In this document: in pieces, positions 203 through 5,139 of the stretch | How the letters are laid out: every line of letters begins with the position of its first letter | How positions within the stretch are numbered: the first letter of the stretch is position 1 | NCBI RefSeq assembly: GCF_030651745.1 | Contig: NZ_JAUSCC010000008.1 | Coordinates: forward strand, 1 to 5,193 | Direction: 5' to 3' | DNA: 5,193 nt | From: Methylophaga sp. | GTDB lineage: Bacteria > Pseudomonadota > Gammaproteobacteria > Nitrosococcales > Methylophagaceae | The notes under the pieces: model-generated | What the model was told of the DNA's origin: nothing | Seen by the model: the letters and a program-made list of their open reading frames with translations, nothing else | Databases searched by the model: none | Program-made: the position numbers and the translations under genes

Positions 203-293
203 GGAGGGATGGCAGAGCGGTTGAATGCACCGGTCTTGAAAACCGGCGTGGGTTTATAGCCTACCCAGGGTTCGAATCCCTGTCCCTCCGCCA
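203..293 (+). tRNA. tRNA-Ser (anticodon UGA)
   Basis: This is a complete class II tRNA with all arms visible. The acceptor stem pairs GGAGGGA (203-209) with TCCCTCC (283-289), followed by discriminator G and an encoded CCA (291-293). The anticodon stem CCGGT/ACCGG encloses loop CTTGAAA at 235-241, with anticodon TGA at 237-239. A long variable arm forms a 5-bp hairpin (248-252 with 260-264), as expected for serine. The T arm is CAGGG-TTCGAAT-CCCTG (266-282). It reads UCA and, by wobble, UCG and other UCN serine codons. It appears to be a single-gene unit with its own promoter and terminator. Confidence 0.97.
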
Positions 294-302
294 AAACAAA
301 CT

Positions 303-325
303 AACGGACTTCGGTCCGTTTTTTT
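303..325 (+). terminator. UUCG-hairpin intrinsic terminator, probably bidirectional
   Basis: AACGGAC (303-309), a TTCG loop and GTCCGTT (314-320) form a perfect 7-bp stem with the extra-stable C(UUCG)G tetraloop. T residues continue through 325, interrupted only by one G before TTT at 327-329, so this is a textbook rho-independent terminator for the tRNA ten bases upstream. On the minus strand the same stem has loop CGAA and is followed by AGTTTGTTTT, a usable U-rich tail. It can therefore also stop the convergent cydDC transcript about 150 bases past the cydC stop. No better terminator for cydC is visible nearer the gene. Confidence 0.9.
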
Positions 326-2185: not shown

Positions 2186-3886
2186 TCAGTCAGCTTTTTT
2201 ACATTCAAAATGAAATTGCTGATCGGCAAGCGCCAACACCTCTGCATCATGACTCGATATCACTAAAATACATTGTGGTTTTAAAGCCAATAGTGCTGCC
2301 AACACGTATTGTCGACTTTCACTATCCAGGCTGGCCGTTGGTTCATCCAGCAATACCAGTGATACAGGTGAAAGTAATACTCTCGCCAGTGCCAAGCGTT
2401 GTAATTGACCACCAGAAAGCCCATCACCATGCTCATTAAGTAGACTATCTAAACCTTTGTCTCTATTAGATATTAAGCTTTTCAAACCTAACTTAGTTAA
2501 TACCTGTTGCATCGCTTGTTTAGTTGCATCAGGTGCCAGCACCGACAGGTTATCGGCCCAGCTACCGTTAATGATCCAGGGCTTTTGTGGTAAATAGCGA
2601 ATCGCTGTTTTACCTATTGGCTGCTTATTTAATAACAGCTCACCGGACACTGCTGGCAGATAACCCGCCAAGCTATGCAACAAGGTGGTTTTACCGCAGC
2701 CAGAAGCTCCGCTAATCACCAGACACTGCCCCGTAGATAACTCGAAGTTTAAAGGCCCCTGTAAAACCTTACTGGCCTTATAACCAATAGTGAGTTCAGT
2801 GACCACCAGATTTGACAGCGCTGCAATGGATGGGGCTTCCGGGTCGGAATCGTCAGCTAGCAGTTCATTATTTTCAGCCGGATCCAGGTATGTAGCAATT
2901 TGAGTAGCAGCTGCCAATGCTGCAGCCCGATCATGATAGAACTGAGAAAGATTTCGTAATGGCTGAAAAAACTCCGGAGCCAGCAGCAATATGAATAAAC
3001 CACTAAATAAAGTGATATCCGCCGCGGGGCCCCAACTAATCGCACCAAACAGGGAAAAACCAATATATATCGCAATACTGGCAATCGCCACACTGGTAAA
3101 AAACTCTAAAACGGCTGACGATAAAAACGCGAGTTTCAGTGTTTTCATCACCACTTGCCGGTAATCCTCACTGCGCGCATTCACATCATTGAGTGCAGCA
3201 GTTTCCGCCGCAAACAGTTTTAACGTAGTGAGATGTTTAACACGATCCAGAAAATGCCCTGCCAGACGTTGGCGTTGTTTGAAAAAACGTTGATTAACAC
3301 CTTCTGCACCCAACCCCACCAACACCATAAATAATGGAATCAATGGTGCTGCCACCACCAAAAACAACGCAGCCAGCCAGTTGTAATAAAACACCACTAT
3401 CACAATAAGGATGGGAGTGAATAAGGCTAATGACTGCTGCGGCCAGAACCGGGCGAAATAACCATCCATCGCTTCCACATCTTCAATCAACTGACTGGCT
3501 GAAGCACCAGATGAACGTTGACTGTGTTGCAAGGCGCTGATGGTTTGCCATGTGCTGAGGATCTGCTCACGCAAATTCTGACGTGCCTGCAAACTTGCCA
3601 ATTGGGAATAGTGATCCTGGGCTCTGACCAGCACGGATCTCAGAATAAGCCCCAGAACCATCAGACTAATCATTAAGGGTTGCTCAACCAGCGATTGCTG
3701 TTGAATGATTATTGAATAAGTTAATTGTGCCAGCGCATACCACTGCACAATCATCGCAATCGTTGCCAACAGACCCGCGATAATAGCTAGCCGTAATCGG
3801 CTTCGCTGCTGCTGCGTCAGTTGCTTTAACAGTAAACGTCCGGCTTTAGCTAAGGATTTATCAGTGTTTATTGACTCATTAGGCAT
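2186..3886 (-). CDS. cydD: CydD, subunit of the CydDC ABC exporter for cytochrome bd assembly
   Basis: This is 566 residues from ATG 3886 (E. coli CydD is 588). The membrane domain is about 31-307: helices near 31-55, 71-90, a pair in 152-190, 252-281 and 291-307. The LAPEFFQPLR..S.FYH motif is conserved; Y317 and H318 align with E. coli CydD Y311/H312, the latter reported at the haem site. The ATPase has Walker A GASGCGKTT 393-401, Q-loop Q434, full LSGGQ 490-494 (E. coli has LSVGQ), Walker B with D514/E515, switch H546, and Y369 as likely A-loop aromatic. It pairs with CydC, encoded 2 bases downstream. An in-frame TTG at 3946 would add 20 residues, but it lies inside a palindromic repeat and has no ribosome-binding site, so I use the ATG. 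That ATG also lacks a good site: the nearby AGAGG serves an overlapping 13-codon ORF. The protein ends shortly after the switch His, lacking the usual tail. Confidence 0.94.
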   Translation of the reverse strand: MPNESINTDKSLAKAGRLLLKQLTQQQRSRLRLAIIAGLLATIAMIVQWYALAQLTYSIIIQQQSLVEQPLMISLMVLGLILRSVLVRAQDHYSQLASLQARQNLREQILSTWQTISALQHSQRSSGASASQLIEDVEAMDGYFARFWPQQSLALFTPILIVIVVFYYNWLAALFLVVAAPLIPLFMVLVGLGAEGVNQRFFKQRQRLAGHFLDRVKHLTTLKLFAAETAALNDVNARSEDYRQVVMKTLKLAFLSSAVLEFFTSVAIASIAIYIGFSLFGAISWGPAADITLFSGLFILLLAPEFFQPLRNLSQFYHDRAAALAAATQIATYLDPAENNELLADDSDPEAPSIAALSNLVVTELTIGYKASKVLQGPLNFELSTGQCLVISGASGCGKTTLLHSLAGYLPAVSGELLLNKQPIGKTAIRYLPQKPWIINGSWADNLSVLAPDATKQAMQQVLTKLGLKSLISNRDKGLDSLLNEHGDGLSGGQLQRLALARVLLSPVSLVLLDEPTASLDSESRQYVLAALLALKPQCILVISSHDAEVLALADQQFHFECKKAD

Positions 3887-3909
3887 AGCAGGGTCTGTTG
3901 CTCTTTCAT
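3868..3909 (-). CDS. Candidate 13-codon leader ORF overlapping the cydD start
   Basis: ATG 3909-3907 opens a frame encoding MKEQQTLLCLMSQ and ends at TAA 3870-3868, inside cydD codons in another frame. It is preceded by AGAGG at 3915-3919 with five bases of spacing, the best ribosome-binding site anywhere upstream of cydD. The cydD ATG lies 23 bases downstream of the leader ATG and has no comparable site. Translation of the short ORF past the cydD start could deliver ribosomes to it, but the arrangement could also be chance. The peptide resembles nothing I know and shows no attenuator-like codon run. Confidence 0.3.
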   Translation of the reverse strand: MKEQQTLLCLMSQ

Positions 3910-3919
3910 AGCCGCCTCT

Positions 3920-4020
3920 GTTGTGAATTGAAAAAACATCACACAAGGCGCAAGGATTGAAGTTTAGCCATTCTACAATGAATGACGAGCAACACAGGGT
4001 GGTGTTTTTTCAATCACAAC
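3920..4020 (+). repeat. Palindromic intergenic repeat, copy 1
   Basis: Long complementary arms at 3920-3944 and 3997-4020 enclose a shared core. The inner part of the arms is TTGAAAAAACA on the left and TGTTTTTTCAA on the right; over 24 bases the arms pair except for one inserted A and two mismatches. The core (3944-3997, 54 bases) carries CAAGGCG at 3944-3950, TAGCCATTCT at 3965-3974 and CAACACAG at 3990-3997. The same three blocks at the same spacing recur inverted in the neighbouring copy. It is non-coding, lies just upstream of cydD, and would fold into a long hairpin in the cydB-cydD transcript. The style recalls small dispersed repeats of aquatic gammaproteobacteria, but I cannot name the family. 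Confidence 0.75.
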
Positions 4021-4031
4021 CCGAAGGTTGG

Positions 4032-4118
4032 GACTTTTTCCGTCCAACTGCGTTGAAAATGACTTATGAAGAATAGCTACATTGCATCATTTACGCCTTG
4101 CTGGACGGAAAAATAGTC
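4032..4118 (-). repeat. Palindromic intergenic repeat, copy 2 (inverted relative to copy 1)
   Basis: A perfect 12-bp inverted repeat, TTTTTCCGTCCA at 4035-4046 and TGGACGGAAAAA at 4102-4113, encloses further pairing: GCGT 4050-4053 with ACGC 4093-4096, and AAATGA 4057-4062 with TCATTT 4087-4092. On the minus strand the core (4100 down to 4048, 53 bases) carries CAAGGCG, TAGCTATTCT and CAACGCAG. The first two blocks are spaced 21 bases start to start, as in copy 1, and the last two 24 instead of 25. The arms differ from those of copy 1. The T-run precedes the stem and the A-run follows it on both strands, so it is not a canonical terminator. It begins 23 bases past the cydB stop and may affect mRNA stability or separate cydAB from cydDC expression. 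Confidence 0.8.
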
Positions 4119-4140
4119 TCCAGCAGTGGTGGCTCAGGCC

Positions 4141-5139
4141 CTAGTGATAACCACCTTTTACCTTGCCGCGGAAAATCCAGTATGACCAGGCGATATAGCC
4201 CAGCACAAATGGGATGACAAACAGGAAGCCTAGTAACAGAAACAGTTGCGATTCATAGGCTGAAGCTGCATCCCATAATGTGTAGTCAGGCGGCACCAGA
4301 TAAGGCCATTTACTTGCCAACAAACCCAGATAAGTGAATAAAAACAGCCCCATAGTGGCAACAAACGGCAAACCTTCCTGCTGTTTTTTAACTGAGCTAT
4401 AAATCAGATAAGCACTATAAAGCGCTAGCAGTGGTAAAAACCAAATGATTGAGAAACCATGGAACCACCGCTCCATTACGCCTGTATCGACAAATGGTGT
4501 GTAGATACTGATGATGGCAAACACCAATAACACCAGCACTAACAGGCGAAGTGTGACGCGATACGCCCATTGCTGTAGTTCACCCTCGGTTTTCATAATT
4601 AACCAGGTACTGCCCAACAAAGCATACCCCGCCACCAAACCTAAACCGGTAATCACTGTGAAAGGCGTTAACCAATCAAACGGGCCACCTACATAGGCAA
4701 AATTATTGGTTTCAAACCCCTGCACATAAGCGCCAACCACCGCGCCCTGAGCAAATGTTGCCACGAAGGAGCCCCCGGCAAAAGCCCAGTCCCATATGTA
4801 TTTGGTAGTATTTGCCTTAAAACGGAATTCAAAGGCCACGCCGCGAAAAATCAAACCAGCCAGCATCAGAAACACGCCTATATATAAAGCAGGCAGAAAT
4901 ACCGAATACACTAACGGGAATGCCCCTAATAATCCCGCACCGCCCATTACCAGCCAGGTTTCATTACCATCCCATACTGGCGCTACCGAGTTCATCATCA
5001 GGTCTCTAGAATGATCATCCGGTGCAAAGGGATACAGAATCCCCTGCCCCAAATCAAAGCCATCCATCAACACATACATCATCACCGAAAAGCCAATAAT
5101 GCCGGCCCAGATAATCACTAAATCAAATGGCTGTTCCAT
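4141..5139 (-). CDS. cydB: Cytochrome bd-type quinol oxidase subunit II (CIO-type CydB)
   Basis: This is a very hydrophobic 332-residue protein with roughly nine membrane helices. It is the structural partner of CydA in the cyt bd quinol:O2 oxidoreductase of the inner membrane. Hallmarks are MDGFDLG near residues 25-31 and VAPVWDGNETW at about 52-62; the Asp after Trp matches E. coli CydB D58, implicated in proton delivery. The length and the WDGNETWLV, FRGVAFEFRFKA and GGPxDWLTPF motifs match Pseudomonas CioB (about 335 residues) better than E. coli CydB (379), so this is a CIO-like enzyme; cyanide insensitivity cannot be inferred. Two adjacent ATGs (5142 and 5139) are possible starts. GGAGGT at 5145-5150 is only 2 bases from the first but 5 from the second, so I chose 5139. 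The upstream cydA stop overlaps this start, indicating coupled translation. No CydX or DUF2474-like small subunit follows. Confidence 0.95.
   Translation of the reverse strand: MEQPFDLVIIWAGIIGFSVMMYVLMDGFDLGQGILYPFAPDDHSRDLMMNSVAPVWDGNETWLVMGGAGLLGAFPLVYSVFLPALYIGVFLMLAGLIFRGVAFEFRFKANTTKYIWDWAFAGGSFVATFAQGAVVGAYVQGFETNNFAYVGGPFDWLTPFTVITGLGLVAGYALLGSTWLIMKTEGELQQWAYRVTLRLLVLVLLVFAIISIYTPFVDTGVMERWFHGFSIIWFLPLLALYSAYLIYSSVKKQQEGLPFVATMGLFLFTYLGLLASKWPYLVPPDYTLWDAASAYESQLFLLLGFLFVIPFVLGYIAWSYWIFRGKVKGGYH

Follow-up and report, generated by a model that had tools for sequence, protein, structure and literature searches.

The 254-bp gap between cydB and cydD in the window (the whole 5,193-nucleotide stretch of Methylophaga sp. 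DNA analysed here) was filled entirely by one repeat unit composed of two hairpins, a linker hairpin, and outer arms, which is probably a copy of a non-autonomous, MITE-like repeat of an ERIC-related superfamily, and not ERIC in the strict sense. Note that "ERIC-related superfamily" is a grouping proposed in this analysis. The unit extends from the cydB stop codon (4143-4141) to the cydD start codon (3886-3884), and the following parts were assigned (R1 is the covariance model described below).

3887..4143, minus strand: whole element, which starts with TAGGG at the cydB stop codon and stops just 5' of the cydD ATG; about 257 bp, the exact right end being uncertain.
4119..4143, minus strand: outer arm beside cydB, TAGGGCCTGAGCCACCACTG.., of which the TAG is the cydB stop codon; pairs with the other arm in the predicted fold.
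4048..4099, minus strand: core of hairpin A, running from AAGGCG to AACGCAG; the whole R1 match spans 4028-4119 (70.1 bits, E 1.6e-13).
4017..4030, minus strand: linker mini-hairpin CAACC-TTCG-GGTTG (CAACCTTCGGGTTG), between the two hairpins.
3945..3997, plus strand: core of hairpin B, running from AAGGCG to AACACAG in the orientation opposite to A; the whole R1 match spans 3925-4017 (62.3 bits, E 1.1e-11).
3891..3923, minus strand: outer arm beside cydD, ..CAACAGAGGCGGCTATGAAAGAGCAACAGACCC, which by the predicted fold exceeds the cydB-side arm by about 12 bases.

The whole element was assigned on the basis of the gene strand from 4146 to 3884, which gave one closed predicted fold (-86.4 kcal/mol). 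Each hairpin has a stem of about 20 bp followed by AAGGCG on the 5' side, a second stem, the tip TAG-YYATT-CTA, and AACRCAG on the 3' side; the loop signature common to both hairpins is thus 5' AAGGCG, this tip or a paired variant of it, and 3' AACRCAG. The fold z-scores of the motif strand were -3.37 for copy 1 (hairpin B) and -4.71 for copy 2 (hairpin A). The architecture is that of the composites in other genomes, in which the linker position was occupied by CCCNNNGGG-like linkers. The outer arms pair with a bulge in the window, because the arm on the cydD side is the longer one, and near-perfectly in Aliikangiella, Thioalkalivibrio, and Thiohalobacter. An imperfect direct repeat (82%; 3884-3900 and 3907-3923) lies within the cydD-side outer arm and may be the source of the bulge. 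As for the ends of the element, TA was found on the cydB side and CCCTGCTA on the other; at the right end, CAACAGACCC ends at 3891 and a TA occupies 3887-3886, so that CCC is followed by TGCTA and not directly by TA. The Rfam search of 3700-4300 gave two matches, both far under the gathering scores and both outside the element.

An earlier note had described two inverted copies of a core with three shared blocks in this gap, and these are present as claimed: in copy 1 (plus strand), CAAGGCG is located at 3944-3950, TAGCCATTCT at 3965-3974, and CAACACAG at 3990-3997, and in copy 2 (minus strand), CAAGGCG starts from 4100, TAGCTATTCT from 4079, and CAACGCAG from 4055. The block spacings, measured start to start, were also as described (21 then 25 for copy 1; 21 then 24 for copy 2), and a repeat search recovered this pair as an inverted repeat of 34 nt with 71% complementarity. 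The inverted arrangement is therefore real; however, it is not one of two separate repeats lying side by side but a recurrent, fixed arrangement, and the pair, which the note had placed in the gap as filling most of it, belongs to a larger unit taking up the whole gap from stop codon to start codon. Beyond the original description, each copy proved to be a hairpin having a stem of its own, and this larger unit comprises both hairpins.

The genome collection was searched with the pattern AAGGCG-N12..16-TAGCYATTCT-N11..20-AACRCAG, which was found exactly at 38 loci in genome contigs and at no locus in viral contigs. Since the exact pattern recurs at these 38 loci, the arrangement of the blocks is not due to chance, as had been argued from the matching distances. 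The covariance model R1 was built from 22 hairpins (the two of the window and 20 of the 38 pattern loci). It matched 37 of the 38 pattern loci, including 17 of the 18 loci outside the model, many of these 17 being near-identical copies from two MAGs. The remaining pattern locus (L014, Desulfobulbaceae) gave no R1 match and is probably a chance occurrence. All 20 seed genomes, which were picked for carrying the pattern, had R1 matches, at 3 to 134 each (150 candidates were scored per genome, so that the high counts are lower bounds). Surveys of even samples, with about 17-21 candidates scored per genome, gave R1 matches at E 0.001 in 95 of 197 genomes of the order of Grimontia and in 82 of 229 genomes, seeds included, of the class of Thiomicrorhabdus (presumed Gammaproteobacteria); in the class of the Paracaedibacteraceae seed (presumed Alphaproteobacteria), 3 of 240 genomes had a match, one of them being the seed itself. 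In this presumed alphaproteobacterium (G020; L036, Candidatus Paracaedibacteraceae) the hairpins form a convergent pair, which reflects either horizontal transfer or a contaminating contig. Family members adjoin unrelated genes in many genomes. The suggestion of a dispersed small repeat family was thus borne out by many copies with conserved spacing in other genomes.

Elements of this family have moved at sites other than that of the window. At a Shewanella site, the element was present in three sequences (L004, L117, and L118), L120 had a plain join, and L121, L122, and L124 had no element, in agreement with R1; the one clear join had a TA-like target. In L119, near 2368, the outer arms were kept and the hairpin core was deleted. 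At a Grimontia site, a single-hairpin element was present in L011, L147, L148, and L149, and R1 gave no match in L151-L155; elsewhere in the genus, this element was found with mostly 89-96% DNA identity among the matches listed. The relative L150 had a different, two-hairpin element (1271-1466) adjoining the same place, which is perhaps a preferred landing site.

For the window's own site, the cyd loci of relatives were compared. Among 274 genomes of the class, five had a CydD match at E 1e-100, with at most 44% identity, and the cydB-cydD gap, readable in four of these distant relatives, was 9, 21, 277, and 279 bp. R1 had no match in the cyd loci of all five, so the single fixed leader in relatives, which the earlier note had named as refuting a repeat family, was not seen, and the gaps of 277 and 279 bp consist of other sequence. 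With two distant relatives having similarly long gaps of other sequence, the gap length alone proves nothing. It is very improbable, in our estimation, that the window sequence is a fixed regulatory RNA (leader or attenuator) of the cyd operon that is merely repeat-like: its strong fold and its location exactly between two operon genes would suit such an RNA, but elements of this architecture occur next to unrelated genes across many genomes, and these distant cyd loci lack the R1 match. A structured gap within an operon can be a repeat insertion instead of a leader.

By comparison of the aligned hairpins, the stems are preserved by pairing and not by letters. Of the stem cells, 80.2% were paired vs 53.7% after shuffling, and both sides had changed in 237 cells vs 92.6 in the shuffled data; however, double changes were not in excess when counted by pair (28 vs 26.9 shuffled). 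Sliding of the partner strand lowered the pairing to 38-45%, where the structure, being drawn from the same sequences, is favoured over its slid versions. In a second set of 56 non-redundant hairpins, which was selected partly for pairing with a filter treating G-T as paired, stem position 11 was Watson-Crick in 56 of 56, with all four bases present. G-T mismatches exceeded A-C mismatches (86 vs 43 in 42 hairpins; 65 vs 21 at positions 0-17 of the second set), which hints that one folded strand matters, but the excess in the second set lay mostly (31 of 44) at positions 5-7, and 32 G-T vs 19 A-C were left without these positions. The cluster of G-T wobbles at stem positions 5-7 (33 G-T vs 2 A-C) is located 6-8 bp below the internal loop.

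The superfamily of Gammaproteobacteria to which the window element belongs appears to include the ERIC repeats. The window element carries AAGGCG and AACRCAG on one strand, around the inner hairpin and within the outer arms; in the published ERIC consensus (PMC2759123, as far as given in passages of that paper) and in four E. coli ERIC loci, AAGGCG and AACGCAG likewise lie on one strand. The arrangement TATAC..AAGGCG..AACGCAG was found in 43 of the 197 genomes of the order of Grimontia (214 matches vs 3 for the reversed control), and these matches include ERIC-like units in G541 (15 matches) and, in several genomes, two-hairpin elements ending in TATACCC..GGGTATA. In the 30 loci read, 6 to 22 of the 24 positions of the left arm were identical to ERIC; six of the left arms exceeded 17, the best value among 141 TATAC sites taken as background (some of which may be family members), and the right arms, where read in the better loci, were identical at 17-18 of 24. 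Elements combining two R1 hairpins with an ERIC-type end were observed, with left ends identical to the ERIC consensus at up to 21 of 24 positions; in the G477 element, a left arm identical at 21 of 24 accompanies two R1 matches (E 5.0e-11 and 1.6e-9) that are convergent and spaced 104 apart.

ERIC (also IRU or RU-1), described in passages of two papers as a 127-bp enterobacterial repeat (PMC2229807, PMC2759123), is similar to the window element in being an imperfect palindrome that is intergenic and multi-copy, with terminal TA, in having AAGGCG and AACGCAG flanking an inner hairpin on one strand, and in that the two-hairpin sister elements carry its TATACCC..GGGTATA ends. However, by the same passages, ERIC has half the length and a single hairpin, its inner hairpin being another one (the ERIC1R/ERIC2 core), and it ends in TATACCC, whereas the ends of the window element are TAGGG..CCC and its hairpins, two in number, carry the TAG-YYATT-CTA tip. 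The 7-bp TATACCC/GGGTATA termini, absent in the window element, were present in the sister elements L206, L210, L211, L214, L226, and L227; as for a length of about 127 bp with the ERIC1R/ERIC2 central core, the window element is about 257 bp and its cores are without that sequence. With R1 at its default filters, none of the four ERIC loci of E. coli was called up to E 10. With the filters off, these loci scored 6.7-6.8 bits (E 2.3-2.5) and L208 scored 14.3 bits, unrelated stretches reaching 11.0. The fold predicted for E. coli ERIC has the GCG of AAGGCG paired to a CGC further along and not to that of AACGCAG. The window element is thus ERIC-like but is not ERIC. The two-hairpin form may already be in print.

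The inverted pair recurs as one unit. In the window, the hairpins are convergent on the gene strand with an offset of 102; a 3.06-Mb Thiohalobacter contig had 51 R1 matches, among which were 18 convergent neighbour pairs 102-123 bases apart, one divergent pair 779 apart, and 15 matches that were unpaired at that threshold, some with weaker partners. The Aliikangiella arm (TAGGGCGTGTTTATC..) was searched for in one genome with up to 3 mismatches, and 16 of its 20 matches made eight pairs (268 bp for six of them, 283 and 298 bp for the remaining two), the other four matches being unpaired. TA was found at both ends in 6 of the 7 readable Aliikangiella elements (10 loci tried). Single-hairpin forms also exist, e.g., in Grimontia. 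The arms differ from genome to genome and also inside single genomes, whereas the inner hairpin is retained. In Thiohalobacter (L074-L080), several distinct arm sequences, each well paired, surround the same kind of hairpin within one genome, as if the arms were swapped as cassettes.

The terminal inverted arms, together with TA at both ends of those Aliikangiella elements and the TA-like target in Shewanella, would be accounted for if the element were a MITE of a TA-target DDE transposon (IS630/Tc1-mariner or similar), moved via its terminal repeats with the inner hairpin as a passenger. We regard this as possible but do not favour it: DDE_3, the TA-target family searched for, was matched in 7 of 20 carriers (six over the cut-off) and not in Grimontia indica, which has at least 104 R1 matches; the arms change while the inner hairpin stays; and none of the 20 Aliikangiella arm matches in that one genome, with pairs 268-298 bp apart, belonged to a full-length IS or a transposase-bearing relative. 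The likeness to MITEs such as NEMIS/Correia, RUP, and QMITE, as characterised in passages of PMC10969869 and PMC2229807, is that they are small and non-coding, with inverted ends, stable folds, TA-type targets, and many copies; the difference is that in this family the internal hairpin, and not the termini, is most conserved between genomes, with no parent IS found in the Aliikangiella arm search.

Movement of a REP/REPIN-like repeat by a RAYT (Y1_Tnp) recognising the hairpins as single-stranded DNA was also considered, and is improbable. The inverted hairpin pairs and the conserved loop would fit, and Y1_Tnp was matched in 15 of 20 carriers, but the other five, including Grimontia indica and Shewanella insulae, had no match (some assemblies being incomplete), the units are far above REP length, the stem sequences are not conserved, and no recurrent gene was recognised beside the elements. 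REP, BIME, and REPIN sequences are, in passages of PMC3733652, likewise extragenic inverted hairpin pairs in many copies; however, REPs are given there as 20-40 bp with GTAG or CGTC tags, whereas in the present family each hairpin measures about 92 nt, the stems vary, and the bases of the stems share no tag. For the search for a partner gene, 852 frames of at least 90 codons from 49 sources were compared all-vs-all; seven clusters over 3 to 6 loci were obtained, some overlapping the repeats themselves, and none was domain-annotated. Y1_Tnp and DDE_3 were rejected as universal mobilisers on the 15 and 7 of 20 carriers with matches, although draft genomes may miss genes; Grimontia indica matched neither.

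For the ERIC-related element proposed here, we tentatively suggest, though with considerable doubt, that ERIC and its kin constitute one Gammaproteobacteria-wide class of mobile repeats moved by structure, the signal being the folded single strand (the AAGGCG/AACRCAG internal loop with the tip) and not the terminal repeats. In passages of a 2007 review (PMC2229807), experimental support is given as absent for how such bacterial repeats, including ERIC, move. A much wider family, in which the internal loop is constant while arms and stems change, marks the part that a mobilising machinery may recognise, and offers many genomes in which to seek that machinery.

As for the mode of movement and the role at cydB-cydD, we infer that the window copy was moved by machinery encoded elsewhere and inserted at the TA of the cydB stop codon. 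CydB is of usual length and end, the 15 of 15 relatives inspected having 332-333 aa and ending in GYH or GYY. The protein matches nearest to the window suggest a Methylophaga-like host, the nearest relatives carrying a 90% identical CydD (P0001). The element would now be in the cyd message, where its hairpins may alter the processing or stability of the cydB part vs the cydDC part. Co-transcribed ERIC copies in Yersinia alter message stability in an orientation-dependent manner, according to passages of PMC2229807; by analogy, the element may uncouple cydB from cydDC. A scan of 3850-4180 found no promoter-like site; the two terminator-like sites that it gave overlap each other and lie on the non-gene strand. 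Downstream of cydC, at 207-315 (plus strand), a putative serine-type tRNA gene and a terminator-like hairpin (ACGGACTTCGGTCCGT followed by a T run) were recognised by eye.
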